A DNA stretch of 64,000 nucleotides. Origin: Zhouia spongiae (lineage in GTDB: Bacteria; Bacteroidota; Bacteroidia; Flavobacteriales; Flavobacteriaceae). The stretch spans positions 2,406,804-2,470,803 of the forward strand of contig NZ_CP094326.1 of assembly GCF_022760175.1 (NCBI RefSeq). The letters are read 5' to 3'. The number at the start of each line of letters is the position of its first letter. Position 1 is the first letter of the stretch. A program made the position numbers and the translations under genes. The notes beneath the pieces were generated by a model. That model had not been told where the DNA came from, did no database searches, and saw only the letters and a list, made by a program, of their open reading frames with translations. Below are positions 43,710 to 60,322 of this stretch, piece by piece.

Positions 43710-43753
43710 GTATTCAAATTTAACCAAATTAATGACATTCTTGATAAGATGGT

Positions 43754-43761: not shown

Positions 43762-43783
43762 TAGTTTAAAAAACACTGAAAAC

Positions 43784-45247: not shown

Positions 45248-45251
45248 CTAT

Positions 45252-45283
45252 AAAAAAACCTCGCTTTTAGCGAGGTTTTTTTA
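45252..45283. terminator. Bidirectional terminator between pepD and the PPIase gene
   Basis: The stem CCTCGCT/AGCGAGG (45259-45265 and 45269-45275) has a 3-nt loop and is flanked by an A run on the left and a T run on the right. Confidence 0.9.
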
Positions 45284-45317
45284 TAGGATAAATATTTCTC
45301 GAAAACCGAAATCTATA

Positions 45318-45381
45318 CCGTATAGCTTATCGGGAGCTCCGGCATTTGGCCTTCTCGTGGGCTTGCCCCGAGGTAGTTTAC
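45318..45381. repeat. Composite hairpin repeat R3 (module C inverted, then module A)
   Basis: 45318-45342 is the reverse complement of module C at 15360-15383, with few differences. 45346-45381 is module A, containing the hairpin CTCGTGGGCTTGCCCCGAG. Its last bases (GTTTAC) supply the TAA stop codon of the PPIase gene on the minus strand, so the repeat overlaps that coding sequence by four bases. Confidence 0.8.
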
Positions 45382-46529
45382 TCTTGTGGTTTGCTGATTT
45401 GCAAGTCGAAAACCAGGTCGGTATCCGGAGGAATAGGCCCTGAACCTGTAGAACCATACCCTAGATGAGAAGGAATGAACAAACGTACTTTGGCTCCATA
45501 GTTTAATAAAAATAACCCTTCCTTGAACCCGGGAACCAATTGTGCATCCAGGCTAAGTGCCGTAGGGAATGGTTGGTATCCGTTGCGTCTTACTTTGCTT
45601 TGCTGAACAGCATTCATTTTTTCGGCAACATCTAACCAGCTTGTGTCAAAAAGAAGGCCGTCTGTGAAATAACCTGCATAGTTAACTAATACTGTTTCTC
45701 CTTCTTTAGGTTTGTCGTCATTCCCTTTTTCTAAAATCAGATATTTTAATCCGGATTCGGTTTCGGATGCTTTGGCTTTTTGTTCTTCAAATTCTTTAGC
45801 CAGATCTTCAGCAGCTTTTCTGGCATCTTCAGCTTTTTTATTGGCTTCTTCAAAATAGTTGCTAAACACCTTAACAGCGTCGAAGTTCTTGGCTTCTTTT
45901 CCGTTTCTGATGATCTTTATATTGTTCATAATCACATCTTCAAGCGGTCTGTCCTGCGGGTTGGTTTCGGTAGCAGCAATTGAATCAACAACTTCCAGGC
46001 CTTTAACTACTTCGCCAAAAACTGCATGACAACTAACTCTTGGATTTTCGCAAGGTTTAAGGTTTCCATTTTGATCGTATGCATCCAGGAATTTTGTTGC
46101 TTTATGTGTAATGAAGAATTGACTTCCGTTAGTCCCAAATCCTGCATTAGCCATTGATAGGATCCCTTTTTTATCATGAGAGAGGTTCTTGTCGAATTCG
46201 TCTTTAAATTTATACCCGGGATTGCCGTTACCTTGTCCTGTAGGGTCTCCTGATTGTATCATGAAGTCTTCGATTACACGATGAAAGATAACACCGTCAT
46301 AATACTTTTTGCCTTTTATAGAATCTGTTACAAATGGATTACTCCCCTCAGCCAGCGTTACAAAGTTTGCAACAGTAATAGGAGTTTTGTCGTAAGCAAG
46401 CTTAACTATGATTTCGCCTTTAGAGGTTTGAATATCTGCAAACAAGCCATCGCCAAGTTCACTGTATTTAGAAGAACAGCCGGCAGCAAGAAATCCAAGC
46501 ATTAAAACAAATAGATTGATTTTTTTCAT
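45378..46529 (-). CDS. Cyclophilin-FKBP fusion peptidyl-prolyl isomerase lipoprotein
   Basis: This 383-residue lipoprotein (lipobox FLAAGC, Cys18) has two isomerase domains. The cyclophilin spans about 30-215 ([20 protein letters not shown] and [14 protein letters not shown]). A charged helical linker follows (about 218-255), then an FKBP domain (about 260-382, with [35 protein letters not shown] and IPSHLGYG). It catalyses proline cis-trans isomerisation during folding of exported proteins. It lies 27 bases downstream of gldI. Its stop codon comes from the adjacent repeat, so the extreme C-terminus may have been altered. Confidence 0.92.
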
Positions 46530-46556
46530 GTTGTTAAATGTATTTATCGGTATGAT

Positions 46557-47120
46557 TTAGTTCTCGTTATTTAATGAATCTTTAGCTATTTCGATTATAT
46601 CTATGAGTTTGATAGTACTGATGAGTGGTTGGTTGGTTCCGATTTTATGATCATCGCCATGGTAACCATACCCCATCACGGAAGGAAATAAGAATGTGAT
46701 CTCTTCTCCTTTTTTCATCAGTTTAATACCGGTTCTCAATCCTGGAAAATAATCTTCTTTATCGACCTTGAATTTTATGTTACCAATCTCTTCATTAGTA
46801 TATATAGTGTCATTTTCCAGTGTTCGGATGTTGTAATTAATCATCACTACATCATCTGTTTTGGGTGTATATGATGAAAGGGTGTTTTTTACATTGTAAT
46901 AATACCAGTATCCGTTTGAAGAATTTAAATACGTATGCGTGGTATCTTTGTCAATAATACTTTTAATAGAAGTCTCTTCTTTTCTTAACAGGTCTTTATT
47001 CCTTTCAATGGATTCCCGTAAAAACGAGCCTGTTTTACGAGAAACAGGTTTTCTGGGTTCGGGTTCATTGCAGGATACTGCAAGGATAGTTAAGAATAAA
47101 ATTAATAAGATGCGTTTCAT
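46557..47120 (-). CDS. gldI: Gliding motility-associated FKBP-type PPIase lipoprotein GldI
   Basis: This 187-residue lipoprotein (lipobox LAVSC, Cys17) has an FKBP domain at about 80-180 (MINYNIRTLENDTIYTN, FPGLRTGIKLMKKGEEITFL, PSVMGYGYHG). GldI is needed for gliding in Flavobacterium, probably by helping periplasmic Gld or type IX secretion proteins to fold. The nrnA stop codon abuts its ATG directly (TAA then ATG), so translation is coupled. The FKBP active site is partly divergent, as in other GldI proteins. Confidence 0.85.
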   Translation of the reverse strand: MKRILLILFLTILAVSCNEPEPRKPVSRKTGSFLRESIERNKDLLRKEETSIKSIIDKDTTHTYLNSSNGYWYYYNVKNTLSSYTPKTDDVVMINYNIRTLENDTIYTNEEIGNIKFKVDKEDYFPGLRTGIKLMKKGEEITFLFPSVMGYGYHGDDHKIGTNQPLISTIKLIDIIEIAKDSLNNEN

Positions 47121-48134
47121 TTATTGTAAATCGTTTTTATACGATGGCAATATAGCTTCTAGCTTTTTTATAGTGTCAGACATATTTGCATCACTTCTTC
47201 CGCCTGCCGCATTTATATGCCCTCCGCCGTTAAAGTGTGTTCTGGCCATTTCATTAACCGAAAAGGAACCTTTGGAACGAAGCGATATTTTAATATAGTC
47301 TCCATCATTATTTTCGATAAATATAATAGAAAGTTTTACACCTTCAATAGAGAGACCATAGTTAACAAAGCCTTCGGTATCTCCTTTTTTAAAGTTATAT
47401 TTATCAAGTTCTGTCTTTGTAAGGGTTATGTAAACCGTATTGTATTCTTTAAGGAATACAAGGTTGTTTAAGGCAACACCCAGTAAATGTAATTTATCAA
47501 TAGAGTTACTATCGTAAATTGCATTGTGTATTTCTGTGTTTTTTGCGCCTCTCTCAATTAAATCTGCAATGATCCGATGGGTGGTGCTGGTAGTAGATGA
47601 GAACCGAAAAGAGCCTGTATCGGTCATAATTCCGGCATAAAGACATGTAGCAATATCCGCATCAATTTTATCAGTACCATCTAAGAATGAGATAAAATGA
47701 TATATCATTTCACAAGTGGCGCTCATCGATACGTCAGAATACATATATTTGGCATATTCGTCAGGTTGTTGATGATGATCTATCATGGCAAAATCAACAT
47801 CCAGATTTTCAAGAAAGGGTTTCATTTCCTCAATTCTGTTTAAAGAATTAAAGTCAAGTGTAAAGATAAGATCGGATTCCCGGAGTATTTTTTTTGCTAA
47901 TTCTTCCTGGTAATCAAACTTAATGACTTCATCATTCCCGGGCATCCATTTTAAAAAGTTAGGATATTCATTGGGGGATATCACGCGAACAGAATGCTGC
48001 CCCTTTTTGAGGTAATGCATTAGCCCGAGTGATGATCCTATGGCATCACCGTCCGGGTTTTTATGTGGAATTATAGAAATTTTTTTAGGACTGGATAAAA
48101 ACTTTTTAATGTCTTTAATTTGCTTCTCTTTCAT
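47121..48134 (-). CDS. nrnA: Bifunctional oligoribonuclease/pAp phosphatase NrnA (DHH family)
   Basis: This 337-residue cytosolic phosphoesterase finishes RNA decay by degrading nano-RNAs and hydrolyses 3'-phosphoadenosine 5'-phosphate. DHH motifs are HKNPDGDAIGSSLG, FTLDFN and MIDHHQQPD. The C-terminal DHHA1 domain has FNGGGHINAAGGRSD. It is the first gene of the nrnA-gldI-PPIase operon. The coupling of an exoribonuclease to gliding chaperones is conserved context in Flavobacteriia rather than a functional link that can be proved here. Confidence 0.9.
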   Translation of the reverse strand: MKEKQIKDIKKFLSSPKKISIIPHKNPDGDAIGSSLGLMHYLKKGQHSVRVISPNEYPNFLKWMPGNDEVIKFDYQEELAKKILRESDLIFTLDFNSLNRIEEMKPFLENLDVDFAMIDHHQQPDEYAKYMYSDVSMSATCEMIYHFISFLDGTDKIDADIATCLYAGIMTDTGSFRFSSTTSTTHRIIADLIERGAKNTEIHNAIYDSNSIDKLHLLGVALNNLVFLKEYNTVYITLTKTELDKYNFKKGDTEGFVNYGLSIEGVKLSIIFIENNDGDYIKISLRSKGSFSVNEMARTHFNGGGHINAAGGRSDANMSDTIKKLEAILPSYKNDLQ

Positions 48135-48183
48135 GGGGCGCTAAGATACAATTTAATAATATAGCAATTTTAAAAAGGAATAT

Positions 48184-48191
48184 TACTTTTG
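48184..48191 (+). promoter_or_regulatory. -7 promoter box of the phosphatase gene
   Basis: TACTTTTG is a perfect TAnnTTTG, 21 bases before the ATG at 48213. It lies in the divergent gap with nrnA. Confidence 0.5.
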
Positions 48192-48212
48192 TAGCTGATC
48201 AATTACGTGTTT

Positions 48213-49241
48213 ATGCTCAAACAGATTTGTGTCCTGGTTTTAATAAGTTTAATGCTGGGGTGTGGTACGGCCAAACAGAAAAATTCTAAAGTAAAGTTCG
48301 ATAAAGAACTGGTCATTGCTTTTGGCTCTTGCGATAACCAGAAAATAGAAAACCTTTTATGGGATGATGTTTTAAAAAACAATCCTGATATCTGGATTTG
48401 GGGAGGAGATAATATTTATTCAGATCCTTATAACAAGTATAAAATGATCGGGGATTATGATATTCAGTCCCGCGGAGAGGATTATCGACAACTTATGAAA
48501 TCGACAGATATATTAGGTGTCTGGGATGACCATGATTATGGATTAAATGACGGGGGAGAAGAATTTGAATTTAAAGATGAAGCTGAACAATTGTTTTATG
48601 ATTTTTTAAACGAACCCAAGAACAGTGTTTTACGAAAAAGAAAGGGAACATATAATTCGAAAACCTACTTTAGCAGTGTTGGTTCGGTAAAAATTATATT
48701 GTTGGATACCCGCTATTTCAGGAGTCCGCTCACCAAAGATTTTGGTTCTTCAAAGCGATATATGCCAAACGCTTATGGAGATGGTACGTTATTAGGTGCC
48801 GAACAATGGAAATGGCTGGAATCTGAACTCATTAACAGTAAGGCCGACTTTAACATTATAGTAAGCAGCATTCAGATATTATCTAACAAGCATGGTTTTG
48901 AAATGTGGGGAAACTTCCCGCATGAAGTAGACAAATTGTTTAACTTGATAACTACGAGCCGGGCCAAAGGAGTGATTTTATTATCAGGAGACAGGCATAT
49001 CTCTGAATTTTCAAAAATAAATATTAACGGCTTGGGATACCCTGTTTATGATTTTACTTCGAGCGGACTGACTCATAGCTACGAAGAATTTAATGGTGAA
49101 GAAAACCCATTCAGAGAGGGTGAAGTGATTAAAGAAAGGAGTTTTGGGGTATTAAGATTAAACCTTGAAACCAAAAAAGCAACCATGCAAATGATCGGGG
49201 ATGGTAATATTTTGCTTCAAGAAGTAGATCAGGTGTATTAA
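48213..49241 (+). CDS. PhoD-like metallophosphatase lipoprotein
   Basis: This 342-residue lipoprotein (lipobox LMLGC, followed by GTAKQ) has the PhoD-type metallophosphoesterase core. It shows AFGSCDNQ, WIWGGDNIYSD with metal-binding Asp and Asn, GVWDDHDYGLND, and LLSGDRHISEF with metal-binding His. PhoD enzymes are phosphodiesterases or alkaline phosphatases that act on extracellular phosphoesters. I chose the ATG at 48213, since it gives a clean lipoprotein signal, over a GTG two codons upstream. It lies upstream of ndk, with a separate promoter between them. Confidence 0.85.
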   Translation: MLKQICVLVLISLMLGCGTAKQKNSKVKFDKELVIAFGSCDNQKIENLLWDDVLKNNPDIWIWGGDNIYSDPYNKYKMIGDYDIQSRGEDYRQLMKSTDILGVWDDHDYGLNDGGEEFEFKDEAEQLFYDFLNEPKNSVLRKRKGTYNSKTYFSSVGSVKIILLDTRYFRSPLTKDFGSSKRYMPNAYGDGTLLGAEQWKWLESELINSKADFNIIVSSIQILSNKHGFEMWGNFPHEVDKLFNLITTSRAKGVILLSGDRHISEFSKININGLGYPVYDFTSSGLTHSYEEFNGEENPFREGEVIKERSFGVLRLNLETKKATMQMIGDGNILLQEVDQVY

Positions 49242-49245
49242 CTGC

Positions 49246-49275
49246 TTGTCAGAATAATTAAAAGCATTACTTTTG
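49246..49275 (+). promoter_or_regulatory. Promoter of ndk
   Basis: TTG at 49246-49248 and TACTTTTG at 49268-49275 are 19 bases apart. This is one of the best Bacteroidota promoter matches in the window, 20 bases before the ATG. Confidence 0.65.
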
Positions 49276-49295
49276 CACCCAAATTTAAAAAACGA

Positions 49296-49715
49296 ATGGC
49301 AACAAACAGAACATTTACAATGATTAAGCCTGATGCTGTTGAAAACGGACACATCGGCGCTATCTTAGAAAAAATTACAGCTGCAGGGTTTAAAATTGTA
49401 GCGATGAAGTATACTCAGTTAAGCAAGCGTGATGCTGAAGAATTCTATGCGATTCATAGTGAGCGTCCATTTTTCGGGGAGTTGGTTGAATTTATGACCA
49501 GAGGACCGATAGTTGCGGCTATTTTAGAGAAAGGTAATGCAGTTGAAGATTTCAGGACTTTAATCGGTGCTACAAACCCGGAAGAAGCTGCAGAAGGAAC
49601 TATTCGTAAATTATATGCTACTTCAATCGGAGAAAATGCAGTTCATGGTTCAGATAGTGATGAAAATGCAGTTATTGAAGGTGCTTTCCATTTTTCAGGA
49701 AGAGAGATTTTTTAA
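49296..49715 (+). CDS. ndk: Nucleoside diphosphate kinase
   Basis: This 139-residue enzyme transfers the gamma-phosphate from ATP to nucleoside diphosphates through a phospho-histidine. The active-site His117 is in NAVHGSDS, and the N-terminal [13 protein letters not shown] and [15 protein letters not shown] blocks are canonical. Normal length. Monocistronic with its own promoter and terminator. Confidence 0.97.
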
Positions 49716-49736
49716 CGATATCTATCCAAAATTTTA

Positions 49737-49763
49737 AAAGCCCCAAGCATTGGGGCTTTTTTT
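49737..49763. terminator. Terminator between ndk and the 74-residue protein gene
   Basis: The stem GCCCCAA/TTGGGGC (49740-49746 and 49750-49756) has a 3-nt loop, seven T residues on the right, and AAAA on the left. Confidence 0.9.
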
Positions 49764-49767
49764 ATAT

Positions 49768-49992
49768 TCAATCTATAAGTTCTTCACAATAAAACCCGGC
49801 TTGAAGCAGCGGATGAATAATCTCTTCAGGTTTAATTGATTCTGATTCAATTCTAAGGATATTGTCCTGGTCTTCAAGGTCAAAGTTCCAGGAACGGGGA
49901 TTGTCGGTTATTTCATTTAAAAGCTTCTTAATCCTATTTTTAATAGTTTTTTTGTTTTGGACGGATGTTTTAAAGACTAAAACAGTTTTCAT
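49768..49992 (-). CDS. Small protein, ferredoxin-like plan, unknown function
   Basis: This 74-residue protein reads as beta-alpha-beta-beta-alpha-beta (MKTVLVFKTSV, helix KKTIKNRIKKLLNEI, NILRIESESI, PEEIIHPLLQAGFYCEEL). That is the layout of heavy-metal-associated domains, but the metal-binding CxxC is missing. I chose the ATG at 49992. It lies ten bases downstream of the DinB gene and is likely co-transcribed. No function assigned. Confidence 0.65.
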   Translation of the reverse strand: MKTVLVFKTSVQNKKTIKNRIKKLLNEITDNPRSWNFDLEDQDNILRIESESIKPEEIIHPLLQAGFYCEELID

Positions 49993-50002
49993 GGGTATGA
50001 AT

Positions 50003-50500
50003 TTAATTCCTGTCCCAGAACATAGGCGGTTCAATACCTAAGAATCTCAGGTATACATAGCCTTGTCCGCGATGATGAATTTCATTGTCTATAAAATAGA
50101 GTATGGTAGATTGTATGGTCCCATCGTACTGGCCAAAAGCAACAATTTCTTTCTGAAACTCGCTTTCTGAAATCCCATTCCAAAGTGTGTCTATTTTTAC
50201 AGTGGTTTCATCCCATAATTTTAAGATATCCTCTTTAGTGCTTAATTTTAGATCTTCGTTAAACTCTTGCCATTTTTCAGTAACGATTCCTTCAATTCCC
50301 GGGCCTGCAATAGCAAGTAGTTCTTTTATCATTGTAGCAAACGGACGCATGCCACCGATGGTATAGTTGAAAAAATCTTTTTCGGGAAAAACCTCAATGG
50401 TTCTTCTGGTCAGGCTTCTATGGCCTTGCCAATGTGCTAACAGTTGTTCTGGGGTAATGATCTTACCGGAAGTGTTCGTCTGTTTGGTTTCAGTGCTCAT
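50003..50500 (-). CDS. DinB family protein
   Basis: This 165-residue protein is a four-helix-bundle DinB/YfiT-type putative metal-dependent enzyme. The expected metal-site histidines are visible in HWQGHRSLTRRTI near the N-terminus and in FIDNEIHHRGQGYVYLRFLG near the C-terminus, which is the family hallmark. Some relatives are thiol transferases for bacillithiol or mycothiol. The actual reaction is unknown. I chose the ATG at 50500, so that the protein begins MSTETK. Confidence 0.85.
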   Translation of the reverse strand: MSTETKQTNTSGKIITPEQLLAHWQGHRSLTRRTIEVFPEKDFFNYTIGGMRPFATMIKELLAIAGPGIEGIVTEKWQEFNEDLKLSTKEDILKLWDETTVKIDTLWNGISESEFQKEIVAFGQYDGTIQSTILYFIDNEIHHRGQGYVYLRFLGIEPPMFWDRN

Positions 50501-50658
50501 AATGTAAATTTTAAAATGACTTTTTGTTATGAGCAAATTTAGAGAGGGCTAGTGACAGCCTTATGTCAGTAGGAAATAAAAAAACAAATTTCGTAGGGCA
50601 GGTGCTGAAGATCCGGTGTTTTGGAGTGCATTTCTATCGAATCATCTTCTTTTAAAAA

Positions 50659-50803
50659 CTACAGGTCGCGCAGTCGGTCCCGGTACAGTTCAACACCGTT
50701 TTTATCCTGAAGACGTTTGAGTGTAATAGCCAGGTTCTTGTATAGGATAAAGGGTAGCTGTATGAGACAGAGCGGCCGAATGTTTTTGACCCGGTGCCGG
50801 TCT
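50659..50803 (-). pseudogene. Possible 3' remnant of a coding sequence
   Basis: On the minus strand a stretch of about 50 codons, ending at a TAG (50659-50661), reads like a natural helical C-terminus: LPFILYKNLAITLKRLQD then NGVELYRDRLRDL. Upstream it runs into repeat R4 and a stop, so no intact gene exists. A decayed gene interrupted by the repeat is one reading. Chance is another. The rest of the 660-base gap between DinB and nhaA holds R4 and no gene. Confidence 0.3.
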
Positions 50804-50970
50804 TTACTCGATAACCGAGTTTAATCCGTAAGAATACCGGGGACTCCGGGGCTTGTCCCTGTGAAATACTCCTGACGGAAAAGTTCACAGGGTTTGTCCC
50901 TATGAAATAGTCCTGACGGAATTTCATAGGACTTGCGTTGAAGTGTTTTGCCCATGTGCGAGCCGGCTCC
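50804..50970 (+). repeat. Composite hairpin repeat R4 (two module B units), inverted partner of R5
   Basis: This 167-bp copy runs from TTACTCGATAACCGAG to CCGGCTCC. It contains two module B hairpins, CCTGTGAA/TTCACAGG and CCTATGAAAT/ATTTCATAGG, each with TCCTGACGGA near its tip. The sequence matches the reverse complement of R5 (52676-52824) over nearly its whole length. One long block from GTGTTTTGCC back to TATGAAATAGTCC shows only isolated differences. Confidence 0.85.
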
Positions 50971-51163
50971 GGGATAATTAACAGCATCATATGTTTAAAC
51001 CGACGTGGCGATGCTATCCGTCTGCCGAGGTAACGGCAACATCTTTTCCGTAGGCGATAATTAATTCAAAGACCAAGAGGTTTACCATAAAGGTTTAGAG
51101 TCCGGTCGATGTCAAAAACTTTCAGATGTACATGCCTGATTCTGGTCTGGTATCTTGTATTTG

Positions 51164-52477
51164 TCACTCATCGTTTTTCAGGTTGGGTTTGCTTGTAATC
51201 CTTAGAACGATGTATCCCAGGATAGCAGATAACATGGAGCCGGTCAGGATTCCTATTTTAGCTGAATCTATGTAAACAGGACTATCGGCAAAAGCCAGAC
51301 TGGCTACAAAAATAGCCATTGTAAAACCGATTCCAGCCAGGCATGCTACGCCCAGTATCTGTCCGTTATTAATATCTTCCGGTACTTCGATAATGCCCAG
51401 TTTTTTTGATAATAAAACAAGAGTGCTTATACCGATACTGTTACCGAAAATGAGGCATAGCGTAATATTAACGGCCAGAGCAGTATCGATACCTGAACCG
51501 CTGCTTAGTGAAACACCTGCATTTGCCAATGCAAAAATAGGGATGATAAAGTATGCAACCCAATCGTGTAGTTTATGCTCCAGGTGTTGAAGCGGAGACT
51601 GAAATTTATCGGTCCACTCTTCCAGGTTGTCTATTTCCGCAATTTGCTCTTTTGATAAGATGGGTTCGGATTTAATAACTCCTTGTTGTATTTTTTCGGT
51701 AATGCTGCCAAGATTCGAAACAAAGGTGCCTGTGTCTATGCGTTGTCTGATCGGTACCGCAAAGGCTAACAAGATGCCTGCTATTGTAGGGTGCACCCCT
51801 GATTTTAAAAATAATACCCAAACAATCACCCCGACCCCAAAAAGAAGGTATTTTGAGTAAAACCCTTTATAAGACAGGTAGTATAGTAATGCAAGCAAAG
51901 CAGTTGCAATCAAGATCATGTCGACTGCAATATTATGAGTGTAGAATATAGCAATAACAAGTACAGCCCCGATATCATCAACAATGGCAAAAGCAGTCAG
52001 AAAGATTTTCAGGCTTAATGGAATCCTGTTCCCCAGTAATTTAAGTACGGCCAGAGAAAAAGCAATATCCGTAGCCATCGGAATTCCCCAGCCGTTAGCA
52101 GTTTCAGGGTTTTTATTTAAAATGATAAAAACTGTCATAGGGATGAGCATACCCCCCAAGGCTGCCACGAAAGGAAAAGCCATTTTTTTTACCGAATTTA
52201 ATTCGCCTATCAGGAGTTCCCGTTTTATTTCTAATCCGATCAGGAAGAAAAAAACAGCCATAAATCCGTCATTTACCCATAACAAAAGTGGTTTTTGGAG
52301 GGAAAATTTTTCAGAACTGATACCAATTTTATAATTCCACAGGTCTGCATAACTCTCTGAAAAAGGCGAGTTTGCCCAAATGATGGCAATTACTGCAGCA
52401 CAGAATAATAGAATACCACTGAGGCTTTCTATTTTAACGAATCTTTGAAAGGGACTAATAAAAACTTTTTGGATCAT
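51164..52477 (-). CDS. nhaA: Na+/H+ antiporter NhaA
   Basis: This 437-residue inner-membrane antiporter exports Na+ in exchange for H+ for pH and salt homeostasis. It has twelve predicted helices. The ion-binding Asp167-Asp168 are in FAIVDDIGAV, and Asp137 in PMATDIAF corresponds to the third conserved Asp. A longer cytosolic loop at about 250-295 separates the halves, as in other Bacteroidota NhaA proteins. The gene is alone and is bracketed by the inverted repeats R4 and R5. Confidence 0.95.
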   Translation of the reverse strand: MIQKVFISPFQRFVKIESLSGILLFCAAVIAIIWANSPFSESYADLWNYKIGISSEKFSLQKPLLLWVNDGFMAVFFFLIGLEIKRELLIGELNSVKKMAFPFVAALGGMLIPMTVFIILNKNPETANGWGIPMATDIAFSLAVLKLLGNRIPLSLKIFLTAFAIVDDIGAVLVIAIFYTHNIAVDMILIATALLALLYYLSYKGFYSKYLLFGVGVIVWVLFLKSGVHPTIAGILLAFAVPIRQRIDTGTFVSNLGSITEKIQQGVIKSEPILSKEQIAEIDNLEEWTDKFQSPLQHLEHKLHDWVAYFIIPIFALANAGVSLSSGSGIDTALAVNITLCLIFGNSIGISTLVLLSKKLGIIEVPEDINNGQILGVACLAGIGFTMAIFVASLAFADSPVYIDSAKIGILTGSMLSAILGYIVLRITSKPNLKNDE

Positions 52478-52603
52478 AATCTGGTATAAATGCGGTTTAT
52501 TCAGTTGAGAATATGAAAAGCACAGTGATTCGCAAACCGATTTAAAAACCTAATTTTTGCCGAATATATTAAAATCTGCTGAAATTTAAGAGGTGGTTAT
52601 TAA

Positions 52604-52642
52604 GTAAACTATCTCGGGGCAAGCCCACGAGAGGGCCAAGCG
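52604..52642 (-). repeat. Repeat module A copy (part of R5 region)
   Basis: On the minus strand this reads TTGGCC, CTCTCGTGGGCTTGCCCCGAG, then TAGTTTAC, nearly identical to 45346-45381 (quoted in pieces). It forms the same CTCG/CGAG hairpin around GGGCTTGCCC. It lies 127 bases upstream of nhaA and is joined to module B copies through a short spacer. Confidence 0.8.
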
Positions 52643-52647
52643 TAAAG

Positions 52648-52669
52648 AAAAGGTCTGGTAGACCTTTTT
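52648..52669. terminator. Terminator-like hairpin inside the repeat cluster
   Basis: The stem AAAAGGTC/GACCTTTT has a 5-nt loop, with a T run on the plus side. No gene ends here, so it is more likely part of the repeat than a working terminator. It could insulate nhaA from transcription on the other strand. Confidence 0.5.
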
Positions 52670-52675
52670 AGCGAT

Positions 52676-52824
52676 GGAGCCAGCTGGCGCATGGCAAAAC
52701 ACTTCAACGTAAGTCCTATGAAATTCCGTCAGGACTATTTCACAAGGGCAAGCCCAATGAAATTCCGTCAGGACTATTTCATAAGGGCAAGCGTCGGAGC
52801 ATTTAAATCTCGATTATCGAGTAA
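52676..52824 (-). repeat. Composite hairpin repeat R5 (two module B units), inverted partner of R4
   Basis: This 149-bp copy is the reverse complement of R4 and lies on the other side of nhaA. It carries two module B units (TCCGTCAGGACTATTTCA twice on the plus strand). It ends in CTCGATTATCGAG, a small hairpin that corresponds to CTCGATAACCGAG in R4. Together with module A it fills most of the 427-base gap between nhaA and sucC. Confidence 0.85.
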
Positions 52825-52869
52825 CAAAAGCTTAATCAAATATTTTTAGTTTAATTAATTGAGGTTTGT

Positions 52870-52877
52870 TACTTTTG
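52870..52877 (+). promoter_or_regulatory. -7 promoter box of sucC
   Basis: TACTTTTG is a perfect TAnnTTTG, 27 bases before the ATG and just downstream of the repeat cluster. The -33 element is not clear. Confidence 0.5.
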
Positions 52878-52904
52878 CCTAGCTAAAATATACAACTGCT
52901 CATT

Positions 52905-54098
52905 ATGAATTTACACGAATATCAAGGAAAAGAAATATTAGCAAGTTTTGGTGTAAAAGTTCAGCGTGGTATTGTAGCACACAATGCGCAAGAAGCTGTA
53001 GCTGGTGCCAAGCAATTAACTGAAGATACCGGAACCGGATGGCATGTTATTAAAGCCCAAATTCACGCAGGCGGCCGCGGAAAAGGTGGAGGAGTAAAGC
53101 TTGCTAAAAATCTTAAGGAAGTAGAAGAAATAGCAGATCAGATTATAGGTATGGATCTCGTAACTCCTCAAACTCCTAAAGAAGGAAAGCGAGTACATCA
53201 GGTATTAGTAGCTGAGGATGTCTATTATCCCGGTCCTAGCGAAACCTCTGAGTTTTATATGTCTGTACTTTTAGACAGAAGTAAAGGGCGTAATATGATT
53301 ATGTACTCTACAGAGGGAGGAATGGATATAGAAGAAGTTGCTGAAACGACACCTCATTTGATTTTTACGGAAGAAATTGATCCTGCGATAGGCTTGATGC
53401 CTTTTCAGGCCAGGAGAGTGGCTTTTAACTTAGGGCTTTCGGGGAATGCTTTCAAGGAGATGGTGAAGTTTGTCAGTTCTCTGTACAATGCTTACGTGAA
53501 GTCAGATGCTTCGTTATTTGAAATCAACCCGGTTTTAAAGACTTCTGATGATAAGATTTTAGCAGTTGATGCTAAAGTTACTATCGACGACAATGCTTTA
53601 TACCGTCATCCTGACTATGCTGAAATGAGAGACCTTCGTGAGGAAGACCCGATCGAGGTAGAAGCAAAAGCTGCCGGATTGAACTTTGTCAACCTTGATG
53701 GTAATGTAGGATGTATGGTAAACGGAGCCGGTTTGGCAATGGCTACCATGGATTTGATTAAAATGGCCGGCGGAGCACCTGCAAACTTTTTGGATGTTGG
53801 TGGTACTGCTGATGCCAAACGTGTTGAAACGGCTTTTCGCATCATCTTAAAAGATACAAATGTAAAAGCAATCCTGGTAAACATCTTTGGTGGTATTGTA
53901 CGTTGTGACAGGGTAGCACAAGGTATTGTAGATGCATATAAGAATATGGGCGATGCTATTAATGTCCCTATCATTGTTCGTTTACAGGGAACAAATGCAG
54001 AGATTGCCAAGGAACTTATTGATAATTCAGGATTGGCTGTTCATTCAGCAATTGAATTCCAGGAGGCAGCAGATAAAGTTCAGGAGGTATTAAAATAA
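52905..54098 (+). CDS. sucC: Succinate-CoA ligase (ADP-forming) beta subunit
   Basis: This 397-residue TCA-cycle enzyme subunit works with SucD to interconvert succinyl-CoA and succinate with ATP formation. The N-terminal ATP-grasp fold begins MNLHEYQGKEILASFGV and contains KAQIHAGGRGKGGGVK. The C-terminal CoA-ligase domain has NIFGGIVRCD and FLDVGGTAD. Length is normal. The partner sucD is not adjacent, since a terminator follows directly, which is common in Flavobacteriia. Confidence 0.95.
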   Translation: MNLHEYQGKEILASFGVKVQRGIVAHNAQEAVAGAKQLTEDTGTGWHVIKAQIHAGGRGKGGGVKLAKNLKEVEEIADQIIGMDLVTPQTPKEGKRVHQVLVAEDVYYPGPSETSEFYMSVLLDRSKGRNMIMYSTEGGMDIEEVAETTPHLIFTEEIDPAIGLMPFQARRVAFNLGLSGNAFKEMVKFVSSLYNAYVKSDASLFEINPVLKTSDDKILAVDAKVTIDDNALYRHPDYAEMRDLREEDPIEVEAKAAGLNFVNLDGNVGCMVNGAGLAMATMDLIKMAGGAPANFLDVGGTADAKRVETAFRIILKDTNVKAILVNIFGGIVRCDRVAQGIVDAYKNMGDAINVPIIVRLQGTNAEIAKELIDNSGLAVHSAIEFQEAADKVQEVLK

Positions 54099-54125
54099 CA
54101 CTGTCAAATATAATGTATATGTCAA

Positions 54126-54152
54126 AGTCCGGCTTTTATGCCGGACTTTTTT
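54126..54152 (+). terminator. Intrinsic terminator after sucC
   Basis: The stem AGTCCGGC/GCCGGACT (54126-54133 and 54140-54147) has a 6-nt loop and is followed by a T run. Confidence 0.9.
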
Positions 54153-54159
54153 GTTATTG

Positions 54160-54500
54160 GTATGTGAACAATATCCCTTTTGACACTTCGAATGTAAATC
54201 TATTGTTATCCGGGATGCTTGTTTAATATATCTTAATAATTGATGATCGTTGTTGATGATTAATTGTTTATTTGAACTTACTTTTGAATGTATTTCAGGC
54301 TTTTTAAGTTTTTGATGATAATGTCATTTTTTGATCTTTTTATGCGTTTTTACTGTAATTGACCGATGAGGGTTGAAGCTGCCTGAACCAGACAGGTTTT
54401 ATTCTTTTAAGAGGATTGACGATACGTTTTTCATGTTTTTTAGTTTAATGTAAATTTTTTTAAATGTAGGTTAAGGATGACAGAAAAGGTGTGGGGTTAG
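54160..54500. other. Gene-free AT-rich stretch with a possible small transcript
   Basis: No protein-coding frame is convincing here. A perfect -7 box TACTTTTG lies at 54279-54286, and a weak hairpin CCTG/CAGG followed by TTTTATTCTTTT lies at 54382-54404. A small RNA of about 100 nt is conceivable but unproven. Confidence 0.3.
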
Positions 54501-54512
54501 GGTGTTGTGACG

Positions 54513-54520
54513 TAAATTTG
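54513..54520 (+). promoter_or_regulatory. -7 promoter box of the 113-residue secreted protein gene
   Basis: TAAATTTG is a perfect TAnnTTTG, 30 bases before the ATG at 54551. Confidence 0.45.
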
Positions 54521-54550
54521 TATCGAAATCAAAAAACAACACAAAAAACG

Positions 54551-54892
54551 ATGAAAACATTAAAAAGAATTATTGTATTGACTGTTTTAGCTTTAACTGC
54601 TAACATAGCAACAGCGAATGTCGATCCGGAACCTTCTGTAAATGAGGTAACCAGGGAGTTGACCAGCTTATTGGGCAAGCCGGGGAATGTATTTAACGGA
54701 CACGTCCTTACTGCCACAGTGTATTTTATGATCAACAAGTCAAATGAAATTGTCGTATCTGATGTGGAAGCAGATAACGAGCTTGTAGAATACTACATTA
54801 AGAGCAGGTTAAATTATAAAAAAGTGGAAACAGATAAGTTGGTCAAAGGGAAAAATTACAAAGTATCAGTTACAGTTAAAGGAGATAAGTAG
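54551..54892 (+). CDS. Small secreted protein of unknown function
   Basis: This 113-residue protein has a signal peptide (MKTLKRIIVLTVLALTANIATA). The mature part of about 90 residues has a helix (VNEVTRELTSLLGKP), beta strands (LTATVYFMINKSNEIVVSDV) and another helix (NELVEYYIKSRLNY). That pattern is similar to short TonB C-terminal-like or exported flavobacterial proteins, in which the 'v-f-i-n-e-G-i' strand precedes a conserved 'v-...-l-n-y' end. I do not recognise a specific family. It is monocistronic with its own promoter box and terminator, so it may be abundant. Confidence 0.7.
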   Translation: MKTLKRIIVLTVLALTANIATANVDPEPSVNEVTRELTSLLGKPGNVFNGHVLTATVYFMINKSNEIVVSDVEADNELVEYYIKSRLNYKKVETDKLVKGKNYKVSVTVKGDK

Positions 54893-54916
54893 CGAATTAA
54901 ATCGCTTCATTGTTTT

Positions 54917-54948
54917 AAAAGACCTGTACCGATGCAGGTCTTTTATTT
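54917..54948. terminator. Bidirectional terminator
   Basis: The stem AAAAGACCTG/CAGGTCTTTT has an 8-nt loop and lies between the convergent small secreted protein and esterase genes. Confidence 0.88.
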
Positions 54949-55752
54949 TTAATAACAGTCCTTTAGAAGCCATTTATAAGCCTTGGTAAACTCTTTTCCC
55001 CAGAAGGATTCATTGTGTTTCTGATTCTTTACAATATAATGTTTGATATTTTTTGATGGTAATTTTTTTTTCAATAGCAATGAGACCATTTTCTCCTGAT
55101 CGGGTACCATGTTTTCACCTTCGTCTGCTCCTGTTGCAAGGTAGATCTTTACATCGGGTAGTGTTTTCAGGTTTTCGACCATCAAAAAAATTTTATCTGA
55201 ATACCAAAAACTCGGAGAAAATACCCCCGCTTGTCCAAATGTATTGTTATATTCGAAAAGGGCATAAAAGGAAATAAGTCCGCCCAAAGAGCTGCCAAAG
55301 ATAGTGGTATGTTTCCTGTCTGGAAGCGTTCTGAAAGCAAGATCGATATGGGGTTTTACGGTTTCTACGATAAAATCCAGGTAATCCTTGCCTTTCCCTC
55401 CTTTGTAATCAGGATGCTCGAAAGGTGTAAGCTCGTCTATCCTTTTTTTGTTACCGTGTTCGATACCAACAACGATAACCTCGGCATTTAGTTCGTCCAG
55501 GCTCTCGTCTATGTGCCATTCTCCAGCGTAAGAAGTATTGATGTCAAACAGGTTTTGTGCATCATGCATGTAAATAACAGGATATCTTTTATTTGAGTTC
55601 TTATAACTTTTAGGCAGATATATCCAAATCCTTTTACTCGTTTTTAGTTGGGGAGCTTCTATAATAAAAGTAGAAACCTGGACAGAAGCAGTTGTCTGTG
55701 CGTGAATTTGGACGAGAAATAATAATATAAAACCAAGAAAAAATAAACGCAT
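54949..55752 (-). CDS. Secreted esterase-type alpha/beta hydrolase (IroE/Fes-like)
   Basis: This 267-residue exported protein (signal to IHAQ) has an esterase D-like alpha/beta-hydrolase fold. There is YPVIYMHDAQNLFD with the oxyanion region, the nucleophile Ser155 in GSSLGG, a likely acid around TGADEGEN, and a His in NQKHNESFW. Relatives hydrolyse siderophore esters or acyl or feruloyl esters in the periplasm. No siderophore genes are nearby, so substrate is open. Single gene on the minus strand. Confidence 0.82.
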   Translation of the reverse strand: MRLFFLGFILLFLVQIHAQTTASVQVSTFIIEAPQLKTSKRIWIYLPKSYKNSNKRYPVIYMHDAQNLFDINTSYAGEWHIDESLDELNAEVIVVGIEHGNKKRIDELTPFEHPDYKGGKGKDYLDFIVETVKPHIDLAFRTLPDRKHTTIFGSSLGGLISFYALFEYNNTFGQAGVFSPSFWYSDKIFLMVENLKTLPDVKIYLATGADEGENMVPDQEKMVSLLLKKKLPSKNIKHYIVKNQKHNESFWGKEFTKAYKWLLKDCY

Positions 55753-55793
55753 CTTGAAACTTTTTATATTTTTAGTTACTAAATATAAGAAAT

Positions 55794-56195
55794 ATGAGTA
55801 ACCATTCAGAAAAATTAAGTTTGTTATCCGATTTAGTCGCGCTTATTAAAGCCGATCATCAAATAACAGATAAAGAAATGGGGTTTTTACGAATGATCGC
55901 AGCCAGATTAGACGTGAATGATAACGATCTGAATAAGTTATTTAATTCTGATGTTCCGTTTACACCTCCCTCATCTGAAGCGCAGCGAATACTTCAATTT
56001 CATCGAATGGTATTACTGATGAATGTAGATCAAGATGAGCACCCTGACGAATTAAACAAGATCAGGGAGTTGGGGGTTCGGCTTGGGCTGAATCCGTTTG
56101 CTATAAACCAGGTGTTGAAGGTAATGGACCAGTTTGATGGCAAGGTTGTGCCTCCGGATGTCCTCATTAATATATTTAAGACGCAATACAATTAG
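55794..56195 (+). CDS. TerB-like protein
   Basis: This all-helical protein of 133 residues follows the TerB/DjlA-N plan. It has LLSDLVALIKADHQITDKEMGFL with conserved acidic residues, a middle helix QRILQFHRMVLLMNVDQDEHPDEL, and a final GVRLGLNPFAINQVLKVMDQ. TerB domains bind metal and sit in stress-related systems. It lies near uvrB (opposite strand, about 1.2 kb away). It has no similarity to UvrB despite names sometimes transferred to such proteins in this phylum. Confidence 0.7.
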   Translation: MSNHSEKLSLLSDLVALIKADHQITDKEMGFLRMIAARLDVNDNDLNKLFNSDVPFTPPSSEAQRILQFHRMVLLMNVDQDEHPDELNKIRELGVRLGLNPFAINQVLKVMDQFDGKVVPPDVLINIFKTQYN

Positions 56196-56711
56196 ACTTA
56201 ATTGTTTTTCAGGTCATTATTCAGTTTGCATCATATTGTTTTGCTGATTACGAAAAGAGTAGTTGATTAGTTTATGAAGATTGTGTTTGTTGAAAGGTGT
56301 CTGTCCTTTTTGTGGGCATAATGGTTTGTTTTTATCAGTCATGGAATAGCCGGTAGTTTAAGTTACCCTATTTGCTACAGGCCAGGTAATGTATTGAACA
56401 AAATTCTAAAAGATGTTGTATTAAGATTATTGCAAGCGTTTTTTAGTGTTTTTTAAATGTTTCTTATGTTTGAAAAAAACAGAGATGTAAGCTTTTAAAA
56501 AGCCATATACTCTTCCGGACAGATATTAAAAAGTCCGTTCACCCTATATAGATGCTCCATATATTCTCTATGTGTTCTCCTATCATGCTGGTATTATGAG
56601 GTGTGTTTTTTTATGATTATGCCGAAACTTTATACCTTTTTTAAAGCTCAAACCTGCAATTCAATTCCTTATAATGTTTTATTCTATTGTTAAGAGTGTA
56701 AATGCGAATGA
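56196..56711. other. Gene-free stretch upstream of hsp20
   Basis: No coding frame, hairpin with T tract, or repeat of the A/B/C family was found in these roughly 500 bases. It is AT-rich and starts directly after the TerB-like gene, for which no terminator is visible. Confidence 0.5.
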
Positions 56712-56756
56712 TGTCATTTTGGCGTAAGTCGCCTTTAGTTTTGCGCCATAATGTCA
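56712..56756 (+). promoter_or_regulatory. Inverted repeat around the hsp20 promoter box
   Basis: TGTCATTTTGGCG (56712-56724) and CGCCATAATGTCA (56744-56756) are complementary at 11 of 13 positions. They enclose the -7 box TAGTTTTG (56736-56743). A smaller GGCG/CGCC hairpin sits inside. The arrangement fits a heat- or stress-responsive operator, although it is not the canonical CIRCE sequence. Confidence 0.45.
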
Positions 56757-56832
56757 CCAAATGATGTTTGGAATCAAATTTGACTATTACATTCTGAATT
56801 TTTAAAAGAAGTTGAATCAAAAAGCTATAGAA

Positions 56833-57267
56833 ATGAACTTAGTAAAAAGAAACCCGAATGTGTTATTTCCATCTTTTATCGATGAATTGTTCAACAATGA
56901 TTGGTACGGAGGGAAAGAGGTAAGGAACTTTAATGCCCCGGCTGTTAATATCAAAGAAAATGACGATAGTTATTCTTTAGAACTGGCAGCACCCGGATTA
57001 AAGAAGGAGGACATAAATGTTTCGGTAGACGAAAACATTTTATCAATTTCATCGGAGGTAAAAACAGAAAAAGAGGAAACGCAGGAAGGAGGCAGGTATA
57101 CCCGAAAAGAATTTAATTATTCTTCTTTCAGAAGGTCTTTCACTTTGCCCGAAACCGCAAATGAGGATCAGATTGACGCATCCTATGCCGATGGTGTTTT
57201 AAAGGTAACAATACCTAAAAAAGAAGAAGCATTACCGAAGCAGAAAAGAATGATTTCAATTTCTTAA
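56833..57267 (+). CDS. Small heat shock protein (Hsp20/alpha-crystallin family)
   Basis: This 144-residue ATP-independent holdase prevents aggregation of unfolding proteins in the cytosol. The alpha-crystallin domain spans about 38-130, with APGLKKEDINVSVDENILSI and ending in DGVLKVTIPKKE. A C-terminal extension has the weak IxI-like MISIS. I chose the ATG at 56833 over an in-frame TTG at 56812. It is a single gene with its own terminator. Confidence 0.93.
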   Translation: MNLVKRNPNVLFPSFIDELFNNDWYGGKEVRNFNAPAVNIKENDDSYSLELAAPGLKKEDINVSVDENILSISSEVKTEKEETQEGGRYTRKEFNYSSFRRSFTLPETANEDQIDASYADGVLKVTIPKKEEALPKQKRMISIS

Positions 57268-57321
57268 TAAGAAGTAGTGTAGTTTTTTCATAATTAGATT
57301 TATTTGGTTAGTTAGTTGAGG

Positions 57322-57347
57322 AAGCGCCCTTTTTACGGGCGCTTTTT
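57322..57347 (+). terminator. Intrinsic terminator after hsp20
   Basis: The stem GCGCCC/GGGCGC (57324-57329 and 57337-57342) is extended by AA/TT and followed by a T run. Confidence 0.88.
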
Positions 57348-57415
57348 ATATAATAAATCCGGCTCTTTCGATACTACTTTCTGTTGGGGCGGTTCAGATA
57401 TTTTTTCAGAGCGGT

Positions 57416-59413
57416 TTAGGAAGTCTTGCTTTCTTCCTGAAGTTTTTTAATCTCATCCCTAAGTTTAGCAGCCTGAATAAAATCAAGTTCTTTAGCCGCT
57501 TTTTCCATTTCCTTTCGTTTATTTCTTATAAGTTTATCAATATCATCCTTGGACATATAAGCAGTATCCGGTTCTGCCGCTGCCATTAGACTATGATTCA
57601 TTTCGTAGTCCGAAGTTTTAGATTTAATAAGAATACTTTCAAGGCTTTTCTTTAAAGCAGTGGGGGTAATATTGTTCTCTGTGTTGTATCTAACCTGCTT
57701 TTCTCTTCTGTAGTTTGTCTCATCAATAGTCTTTTGCATGCTGTTCGTTATTTTATCAGCATACATTATAGCTTTCCCATTTAAATTCCGGGCAGCTCTG
57801 CCGACTGTCTGGGTCAGCGATCTGGCACTGCGTAAAAAACCTTCCTTATCGGCATCAAGAATGGCGACCAGAGAAACTTCAGGCAGATCAAGGCCTTCCC
57901 TTAGTAAATTAACCCCAACCAGTACATCGAAGAGCCCTTTTCTTAAATCCTGCATTATCTCCACCCTTTCAAGGGTGTCAATATCTGAGTGTATATAGCG
58001 GCATCTGATACCGGTTCTGGTCAGGTATTTTGTCAGCTCTTCTGCCATTCGCTTTGTCAGCGTGGTTACCAAAACACGTTCGTCTTTTTCAACCCGTAAC
58101 TGTATTTCCTCCATGAGGTCATCAATCTGGTTTTCACTTGGTCTCACTTCAATTTCGGGATCCAGAAGACCTGTAGGACGGATAACCTGTTCAACATAAA
58201 CCCCTCCACTTAGTCCGAGTTCATAATCAGCCGGTGTAGCAGATACGTATATTACCTGGTTTTGCAAAGCTTCAAATTCTTCAAATTTTAACGGGCGGTT
58301 ATCCATAGCGGCAGGAAGGCGAAAACCATAGTCCACTAGGGTTTCTTTACGGCTTCTGTCCCCGCCATACATGGCGTGTACCTGAGGTATGGTTACATGG
58401 CTTTCATCGACAACCATAAGGTAGTCGTCCGGAAAATAGTCCAGTAGGCAGAAAGGTCTGGTTCCGGGTTCGCGACCGTCCAGGTATCTTGAATAATTTT
58501 CAATTCCAGAACAATAGCCCAGTTCCCGTATCATTTCCAGGTCAAAATTTGTACGTTCTTCGAGCCGTTTTGCTTCCAGGTGTTTTCCTGTTTCCTTAAA
58601 ATAGTCAATTTGCCTGACCAGATCATCCTGAATATCCCTGATGGCATTTTGCAGGACATCGGGTGAAGTAACGAACATATTGGCCGGATAAATATTCAAC
58701 CTGTCATATTTTTCAATAATAGCATTGTTTGCCGGGTCGAAAGCTTCAATTTCTTCTATTTCATCACCGAAGAAATGGATTCGGTATGCATGATCGGCAT
58801 AGCTGGGAAAAACATCTACCACATCTCCCTTAACCCTGAAATTTCCGTTCATAAATTCGGCCGTTGTCCTGGAATATAAACTTTGTACCAGTTGGTGAAG
58901 GAACTTGGTTCTGGATATTACCTGGTCCCTTTCGATCTTTATTACATTTTTTTGAAATTCCACCGGATTTCCGATACCATATAAACAAGATACGGATGCT
59001 ACCACTAATACGTCCCTGCGTCCGGATAACAAAGCCGAAGTAGCACTCAGTCTTAATTTTTCTATTTCATCATTAATAGAAAGATCTTTTTCGATATATG
59101 TTCCCGTAACGGGAAGGTAAGCTTCAGGTTGGTAATAATCGTAATATGATACGAAGTATTCCACCGCGTTATCAGGAAAGAATTGTTTGAATTCAGAGTA
59201 AAGTTGGGCAGCAAGAGTTTTGTTATGTGCCAATACCAATGTCGGTCTTTGTACTTCTTGCACGACATTCGCCACGGTAAAGGTTTTGCCCGAACCGGTT
59301 ACCCCCAGTAATGTTTGATACCTTTCATCTGTTTCAATACCGGAGGCCAGTTGTTTAATTGCTTCCGGTTGATCTCCGGTAGGTTTGTATTCTGATTCGA
59401 TTTTAAATTTCAT
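57416..59413 (-). CDS. uvrB: Excinuclease ABC subunit UvrB
   Basis: This 665-residue helicase-like protein verifies DNA damage with UvrA and recruits UvrC in nucleotide excision repair. The Walker A is GVTGSGKTF (about 38-46). The beta-hairpin region has YYDYYQPEAYLP. Motif II is DESH, and motifs V-VI are GVNLLREGLDLPEV and QTVGRAARN. A C-terminal UVR domain (KEMEKAAKELDFIQAAKLRD) contacts UvrC. All motifs are complete. No other uvr gene is adjacent. Confidence 0.97.
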   Translation of the reverse strand: MKFKIESEYKPTGDQPEAIKQLASGIETDERYQTLLGVTGSGKTFTVANVVQEVQRPTLVLAHNKTLAAQLYSEFKQFFPDNAVEYFVSYYDYYQPEAYLPVTGTYIEKDLSINDEIEKLRLSATSALLSGRRDVLVVASVSCLYGIGNPVEFQKNVIKIERDQVISRTKFLHQLVQSLYSRTTAEFMNGNFRVKGDVVDVFPSYADHAYRIHFFGDEIEEIEAFDPANNAIIEKYDRLNIYPANMFVTSPDVLQNAIRDIQDDLVRQIDYFKETGKHLEAKRLEERTNFDLEMIRELGYCSGIENYSRYLDGREPGTRPFCLLDYFPDDYLMVVDESHVTIPQVHAMYGGDRSRKETLVDYGFRLPAAMDNRPLKFEEFEALQNQVIYVSATPADYELGLSGGVYVEQVIRPTGLLDPEIEVRPSENQIDDLMEEIQLRVEKDERVLVTTLTKRMAEELTKYLTRTGIRCRYIHSDIDTLERVEIMQDLRKGLFDVLVGVNLLREGLDLPEVSLVAILDADKEGFLRSARSLTQTVGRAARNLNGKAIMYADKITNSMQKTIDETNYRREKQVRYNTENNITPTALKKSLESILIKSKTSDYEMNHSLMAAAEPDTAYMSKDDIDKLIRNKRKEMEKAAKELDFIQAAKLRDEIKKLQEESKTS

Positions 59414-59491
59414 AACGGCTAATAAGAATACAAAGCTAACAAACTAAACAAGAACTTCCATAGGCAAATTGATTACGAAAGCGTAAACAGC

Positions 59492-60322
59492 TTACAGATC
59501 TCTTCTTTTTAAAAGAACATACGACCAGTATACAAATATTGCCGTCCAGGCCAAAACAATCAATACTTCGTACCAGTGTACTCCAAAATCATAAGACACG
59601 TCTTCGCCTATTTGTTTTGCTACCGATTGTACGGCACCGAGTCTCGTGAAGGGTTCCTTAATAAGATTGCTCATGGCATTAAGCGGTAAAAAGGAAAGTA
59701 CATTCGAAGCAAAATGTTCGTCGATTTTCCAGCGTAGGATCAGGTAGATCATCCCTTCGATAAATTGCCAGAGAATAAGAAACCCTAATGCAAAGGCCGA
59801 CCGTTTTACCAACATTCCCAGGAACAGACAAAAGGCAAAGAAACCGATGAGTTTAATAAAAAAGGCCAGGAGAAATTCAAGGTCCGAAAAAATAATAGAA
59901 AGCTCATTGAAGTCTGAATAAGTGAGACCCAGAATCAGGGATACTACAAATATAAAAGCCGTTGATATGGCCGAAAAACCAATAACTGTCAGGAATTTGG
60001 ACAATACAAACTCTTTTTTACTCAAGCCGTCAATGAGATTTTGTTTTATGGTTTTGTTGCTGTACTCATTAGCCATCATCGATACAATTACGATAGCTAA
60101 AAAGAGTTTGAAGAATGCGGCAATAAAGGTATTAAAATGCCAGATGTACGGGAAATTAAAGATGCCTTCTTTGGCCAGGTGGAATTTTATAGGTCCGATA
60201 TCGAACTTTATAGCGGCAATTAATGCAATTGAGGTCAGCAATACGAAATAAGCTATAATTAAAAACTTGCTTACCCTGCTATTCCAAAGTTTTATAAATT
60301 CTATTTCTAAAAGACGTAACAT
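59492..60322 (-). CDS. ABC transporter permease (ABC-2 type)
   Basis: This 276-residue protein has six transmembrane helices in the ABC-2/DrrB-type arrangement: MLRLLEIEFIKLWNSRVSKF at the start, a first helix at about 18-38, and the remaining five helices from about residue 60 to 272. It lies 19 bases downstream of its ATPase. Such pairs export peptides, lipids or drugs. The substrate is not indicated. The name 'gliding' ABC (GldA/GldF) does not apply, because the sequence lacks those features and gldG is absent. Confidence 0.85.
   Translation of the reverse strand: MLRLLEIEFIKLWNSRVSKFLIIAYFVLLTSIALIAAIKFDIGPIKFHLAKEGIFNFPYIWHFNTFIAAFFKLFLAIVIVSMMANEYSNKTIKQNLIDGLSKKEFVLSKFLTVIGFSAISTAFIFVVSLILGLTYSDFNELSIIFSDLEFLLAFFIKLIGFFAFCLFLGMLVKRSAFALGFLILWQFIEGMIYLILRWKIDEHFASNVLSFLPLNAMSNLIKEPFTRLGAVQSVAKQIGEDVSYDFGVHWYEVLIVLAWTAIFVYWSYVLLKRRDL

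Follow-up and report, generated by a model that had tools for sequence, protein, structure and literature searches.

The Na+/H+ antiporter gene nhaA of Zhouia spongiae (51164-52477, minus strand; TIGR00773, 404.2 bits) lies between two inverted repeats, R4 and R5, raising the question of whether gene and repeats form a unit that inverts or moves, or whether the repeats reached this locus separately. Coordinates refer to the window, i.e., the complete 64,000-nucleotide stretch of DNA that was analysed. An initial annotation had described R4 and R5 as near-complementary copies flanking nhaA, each containing two B hairpins, and this description was borne out by an inverted-repeat search and by a search for the B core (TTCCGTCAGGACTATTTCA). 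Allowing up to three mismatches, the latter located the core twice in R4 (one of these matches having a mismatch), twice in R5 and nowhere else in the window, when 0.03 matches would be expected on the basis of 100 shuffles. The longest R4/R5 inverted arms measure 72 nt at 89% identity (50881-50952 and 52693-52764). The outer ends are also paired (19 nt at 89%; 50804-50822 and 52806-52824), as are the B units with each other.

The positions first assigned to the two repeats held, except that the R5 start at 52676 missed the left third of the element. R5 actually spans 52608-52824 on the plus strand (217 bp, including the left end and the T/C module) and is a composite element with a body running from ACTATC to CGAGTAA, as read from its sequence, from other long copies sharing 86-92% identity and from the right junction in the genome of a congener. 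The target tetranucleotide GTAA (52604-52607, plus strand) immediately abuts the R5 5' end, and the right flank at the same place in the congener reads GCGTAA/CAAAAGC, with the slash marking the junction. Proceeding along the plus strand, R5 comprises hairpin1 of end A (CTCGGGGCAAGCCCACGAG, with a bulged A; 52613-52631), recognised by folding and covariation; a T/C module (52632-52696), consisting of a terminator-like hairpin (AAAAGGTCTGGTAGACCTTTTT) and GGAGCCAGCTGGCGCATGG, that replaces the GCATT..GGAAA spacer; two 39-bp B hairpin units found by both the repeat and B-core searches (52711-52749, within the hairpin2 loop, and 52750-52788); and a type I tail hairpin (CTCGATTATCGAG; 52809-52821) followed by TAA. 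The single-stranded fold of R5 is far more stable than those of shuffled versions (z -5.44, DNA parameters).

R4 (50804-50972, the end being approximate; minus strand) is, according to its sequence, the repeat search and alignment, a truncated copy that retains the C part, two B hairpins, an insert and the tail, without end A and the T hairpin. Its B cores are found at 50903-50921 (exact) and 50862-50880 (one mismatch), both on the minus strand. R4 aligns with R5 at 84% identity over 127 nt, R4 being the more diverged of the two, and its single-stranded fold is weaker relative to shuffles (z -3.28). Apart from this very place, none of the loci compared contains a relative of the R4 flanking sequence (50560-51165) outside R4. 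A pair of 13-nt inverted arms (50778-50790 and 51111-51123) encloses R4. Sequence comparison revealed further members of the same family in the window, namely a clean type II unit of 99 bp with no B (15236-15334, minus strand) and a 37-nt end-A remnant that is 95% complementary to the R5 left end (45346-45382, minus strand). What is likely a diverged type I unit follows the type II unit, at about 15350-15405.

If nhaA were a mobilised cassette, that is, a composite transposon delimited by R4 and R5, then inverted copies bracketing the gene would be expected. In the same vein, among 13 nhaA loci in other genomes (three of them cut by contig ends), that of the congener is the only one with matches to sucC, dinB and ndk in its flanks. 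The congener genome is, however, collinear with window positions 42869-59833, presenting the identical ndk-dinB-nhaA-sucC order and the same nhaA orientation. There, an nhaA orthologue (87% protein identity) lies between dinB and sucC, with ndk beyond, and both R4 and R5 are absent. The spacers flanking nhaA are 592 and 342 bp in the window, as compared to 117 and 124 bp in the congener. Because nhaA occupies the same place in the congener without the repeats, the proposal of a mobilised cassette is contradicted; given that R4 also lacks end A, the chance that this proposal is right is close to nil. Judging from this comparison of two genomes, nhaA most likely predates the repeats and is not carried in a cassette. 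The nhaA-dinB spacer (50573-51163) exceeds that of the congener by 475 bp, of which R4 accounts for only some 170 bp.

The congener still contains related repeats, in that two scored matches to the T/C part were obtained. A search for end A with up to three mismatches returned no sites in that genome, and the B core was matched only four times, in each case with three mismatches.

To appreciate how unusual the R4-R5 arrangement is, repeat copies were sought throughout the closed host genome (4,040,482 bp), of which the window occupies positions 2,406,804-2,470,803; pattern searches revealed 60 B sites, 101 tail sites (up to three mismatches) and 60 end-A sites. When these sites (100 of the 101 tail sites being used) were pooled with 40 copies scored out of 134 BLAST candidates and with the R4 tail, added by hand, 136 clusters were obtained, or about 134 once one split element was joined. 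Inverted neighbours within 2.5 kb are not enriched, with three being found and 5.4 expected at random. Two of these three correspond to a single element holding an inverted B, leaving nhaA as the only true pair. The repeats are not peculiar to nhaA, copies of this element occurring throughout the genome. In one tandem case, coordinates indicate that a single GTAA is common to two elements (tail at 1205414, end A at 1205432).

Recombination between R4 and R5 could nonetheless flip the nhaA segment, altering the context of the promoter, given that the two repeats form inverted arms. R5 is, moreover, the closest copy to R4 among the loci compared (85%, as opposed to 84% for the next), and one base, the C in GCAAAACACTTC, is exclusive to R4 and R5 among 56 listed copies, as limited exchange might produce. 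Yet bases common to just two copies were seen in 27 of the 1081 pairs of a 47-copy alignment, R4-R5 among them, such that the shared base represents weak evidence of local exchange between these two sequences. Viewed from R5, R4 ranks merely 21st of 46 copies in terms of identity across an 87-nt core (85%), the best being L013 (95%). The longest arm extends over just the 72 nt described above, no recombinase was spotted by eye among the ORFs of the 47-57 kb region, and nhaA is oriented identically in the window assembly and in the congener. These comparisons hence lend no support to an invertible segment, which is considered very improbable. Instead, the third option initially raised, namely that a REP-like element inserted twice independently, is supported by the approximately 134 scattered clusters, by the lack of an excess of inverted neighbours and by the absence of R4 and R5 from the syntenic locus of the congener, with the pairing of R4 and R5 around nhaA probably being incidental. 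The designation 'REP-like' can be refined, the element being better described as a PATE-like relative of IS200/IS605 transposons bearing inserted hairpins, as follows.

The frame of the element is a unit of mostly about 100 bp, ordered as GTAA, ACTAC, hairpin1, spacer, hairpin2, tail hairpin and TAA, with the sequence plan GTAA/ACTACCTCGGNGCAAGCNCACGAGGCATT...GGAAA...TTTCGAGGCAAGCCTCGG...tail. In the host genome, the 40 copies with both ends measure 70-264 bp including the target, too short to encode a transposase. Upon inspection, the two ends are unlike (GTAA/ACTACC as opposed to CGAGTAA or CCAATAA), with no terminal inverted repeats, and folding, covariation and the units read all place palindromes near both ends. 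Searching contigs with the end-A pattern yielded 109 stretches, 80 of which were listed with names from at least 12 named genera; the matches listed include Galbibacter, Salegentibacter, Maribacter, Zunongwangia, Cellulophaga, Aquimarina, Sinomicrobium, Leeuwenhoekiella, Zobellia, Arenibacter, Tenacibaculum (MAGs) and Snuella, together with unclassified MAGs. The same contig search with the T/C-module pattern gave no match. Across all 109 stretches, a rough script classified the tails at 110 sites as type II (54), type I (34), type III (5) or other (17), and GTAA was the 5' tetranucleotide in 95 of 110 copies. R5 was matched in 99 of 299 genomes of the family, with the matches listed outside the host genome corresponding to single modules only. 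The T/C module also occurs alone, separate from the rest of the element, in other genomes of the family. A search of plasmids and phages with the L172 type I unit gave no match. In a further genome of the family, G271, one repeat copy (L192) and its flanks look identical to those in a record of Salegentibacter maritimus (L223), which is likewise a member of the Flavobacteriaceae.

Compensatory changes are seen in hairpin1. In a hand-chosen set of 15 distinct forms with a four-base loop, read by eye, 95.8% of cells pair and five of the eight pairs change on both sides; the covariation score of this chosen set is 0.463, as compared to 0.126 for shuffles and at most 0.190 for slid versions. Left out of the set were forms with longer loops (L343, L344, L348, L350, L351, L354 and L355), an unbulged form (L340), an odd form (L357) and duplicates (L353, L356 and L361). 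The variable hairpin1 pair was also scored in 110 copies taken without selection; it is standard in 100 (88 G-C, 5 G-T, 4 A-T and 3 T-A), whereas the two bases do not pair in the other 10, six of these being A-C. A T/C-type hairpin with compensatory stem changes of its own (AATGTCT/AGACATT) was noted by eye at L094 (G216:C1:2524568-2524626), adjoining a tRNA-like gene in an apparent rRNA operon spacer.

Such an organisation recalls the palindrome-associated transposable elements (PATEs) of Haloquadratum walsbyi (PMC3119063), which leave no room for a transposase, lack terminal inverted repeats, carry near-terminal palindromes and generate no target duplication. PATEs are numerous, have ends related to IS605-type transposons and show strain-specific insertions despite intact tnpA being scarce or missing (PMC3119063). 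The element studied here shares with PATEs its short length, palindromes near the ends, the lack of terminal inverted repeats and of target duplication, IS605-type-related ends and high numbers. It differs in being bacterial (Flavobacteriaceae), in its xTAA target, in having three tail types and a T/C module that replaces the spacer, and in that no tnpA was found in the host. A second parallel is offered by the BOX elements of Streptococcus pneumoniae, which are likewise modular, with two end modules, a variable number of central units, more than 100 copies and a structure if transcribed; they present, however, terminal inverted repeats and target duplications (PMC3049150), neither of which is seen here, and the likeness noted is one of organisation.

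The mode of insertion was addressed by seeking the flanks of host copies in the congener, where 18 of 24 were located and six were not found. Sixteen of the 18 alignments span the junction and two do not. By eye, two of the 16 are gap-free around the junction (L028, GTAA; L137, GTTT) and four have gaps of 1-4 nt beside it (L065, ATAA; L005, ATAA; L020, GTAA; L022), with the remaining 10 lying in spacers too diverged for the junction to be placed. The left flank of R5 could not be aligned. At the readable sites, i.e., the two gap-free junctions, the four with small gaps and the right flank of R5, no second copy of the target was detected, within the limits set by the divergence of the congener. 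These alignments point to insertion at xTAA without target duplication.

The target sometimes doubles as a stop codon. Its TAA closes a reading frame of no fewer than 100 codons at 11 of the 102 contig-stretch sites, as compared to 92 of 8124 GTAA controls, and at six of 40 copies in the host genome. Together with the covariation of hairpin1 and the stable fold of R5 as calculated with DNA parameters, this excess might be taken to mean that the element is a structured RNA retained for regulation downstream of genes. The excess can, however, also be explained by the loss of insertions inside genes, and the element has its hairpins in common with IS200 transposons. Moreover, a search against Rfam returned nothing at the elements, and the congener has no end-A match. 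As such, retention as a regulatory RNA is judged highly improbable. The Rfam search did identify a 6S-Flavo RNA (RF01685, 105.6 bits) at window positions 13446-13554 and, in locus L165 (1-111, minus strand), a SAM riboswitch (RF00162, 71.2 bits) located upstream of one copy of the type II unit.

The origin of the ends was pursued by searching 25 genomes for the Y1 transposase domain (PF01797). Genes were found in 13, including only four of the 11 genomes carrying end A. The seven end-A genomes with no PF01797 match are G000, the host genome itself, as well as G167, G251, G095, G194, G115 and G250. In G159, one of the genomes with a match, a Y1 gene is flanked by an end-A-like hairpin and hairpin2. 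The encoded TnpA scored 128.6 bits against the IS200 model (NF033573; cut-off, 55) and 27.3 bits against the REP model (cut-off, 80), and relatives at an E-value of 1e-30 or better were found in 18 of 397 genomes of the family. Of 24 tnpA loci examined by eye, some of them cut or decayed, about 21 present hairpin1 of this form and about 23 present hairpin2 with GGGGAATT or a closely similar sequence after it. The four tnpA elements measured are 538-584 bp long.

The short elements and the IS200-type transposons of the family (L310/L335, L341, L343, L353, L361 and L346) have in common the same form of hairpin1, in which one base is mostly bulged, and a hairpin2 after which GGGG(A/T)ATT or a similar sequence is found. 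The transposons differ in carrying tnpA and in usually having ATGA 5' of the element and GATTAA at the end; most tnpA-bearing relatives thus have ATGA in place of GTAA, along with a different tail. L346 comes closest to the short units, sharing GTAA and GGGGCATT with them and continuing with CGAGGGAAGCCTCGGGGTATT and AATAA, its tnpA being interrupted by two stops. No direct parent of the short element was found among the tnpA elements examined. Since the copies are too short for TnpA and the host has no PF01797 match, they are not IS200/IS605 transposons proper, and the frame is best read, from its sequence, as a PATE-like, non-autonomous relative of the TnpA-only IS200/IS605 elements. The lack of PF01797 matches in seven of the 11 end-A genomes and the ATGA and differing tail of most tnpA-bearing relatives count against this reading.

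High copy number, hairpins and a mainly intergenic location are equally features of REP/REPIN sequences moved by RAYT (TnpA-REP) proteins, and GTAG is found beside the foot of hairpin1 on the opposite strand. Such an origin is nevertheless improbable, given that the host lacks PF01797, that the two ends of the unit are unlike, that the related TnpA fits the IS200 and not the REP model, and that a different repeat flanks both RAYT-like genes of the congener. The RAYT-like genes of the congener (L105 and L106) have their own flanking repeat, CTACCGCACGAATCC and its relatives, distinct from the element studied here.

Copy orientation divides the host genome, with 13 plus- and 35 minus-strand copies at 1.53-3.03 Mb and 60 plus- and 27 minus-strand copies elsewhere; none of 400 permutations was as extreme. 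GC skew, calculated from 211 kb of loci and the window, changes sign twice, from negative to positive at about 1.1 Mb and back to negative at about 3.0 Mb, with a near-zero stretch at 3.5 Mb. When orientation was compared to the skew boundaries, p values of 0.0001-0.0015 were obtained; the bias is clear for end-A clusters (0.0006) but not for tail clusters (0.23), the strand reading from end A to the tail tending to be the G-poorer one. IS200/IS605 elements target the lagging-strand template, such that a strand bias is expected (PMC6006769). Co-orientation with genes may also contribute; in the window, 27 of 40 genes lie on the minus strand, though the plus-strand skew is positive.

The B hairpins represent a second layer. 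The type II unit shared by loci L050 and L165 includes a 39-bp B in its hairpin2 loop in L050 but not in L165, with GCAAGC found on both sides of B. By fuzzy matching, the 40 host copies with both ends hold no (7 copies), one (26) or two (7) forward B units, and 32 of the 40 include the T/C module; two of the 'tail II' labels in this set probably correspond to diverged type I tails. B is inverted in L128, and other hairpins occupy the same hairpin2 loop in some other genomes (L204, L227 and L228). A precedent is provided by the SMR-A small mobile repeats, which insert into PATE palindromes (PMC3119063). B resembles SMR-A in that a hairpin unit resides within a palindrome of a PATE-like element. 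SMR-A is, however, about 110 bp long and has terminal inverted repeats, whereas the 39-bp B is bordered by GCAAGC at either side and may occur in tandem. It is conceivable, albeit unlikely, that B is a self-propagating hairpin parasite that enters the extruded hairpin2 loop in either orientation, with GCAAGC on both sides, and that the resulting composites kept spreading without a recognisable Y1 transposase, in which case an enzyme that is not recognised may mobilise them.

Taken together, R4 and R5 very probably arose when a non-coding mobile element of high copy number, PATE-like and related to IS200-type transposons but devoid of a transposase, inserted twice independently at a locus where nhaA was present first and where no cassette exists. 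A Y1 transposase since lost from the genome or not recognised in it would have mobilised the element in trans, in the form of single-stranded DNA, and B would have spread as a secondary hairpin insertion. Lying in the divergent nhaA-sucC spacer, R5 would have at most a local effect on nhaA and might insulate both promoters, and its T hairpin could serve as a candidate terminator of transcription in both directions.

The repeat near nhaA belongs to a PATE-like family that is widespread in Flavobacteriaceae and of which no description was found in the open-licence literature searched, with the nhaA arrangement itself being ordinary. For the host, this would mean an IS200-type passenger present in high copy number although the genome has no recognisable transposase and, in the B units, a clear case of one hairpin element residing within another.
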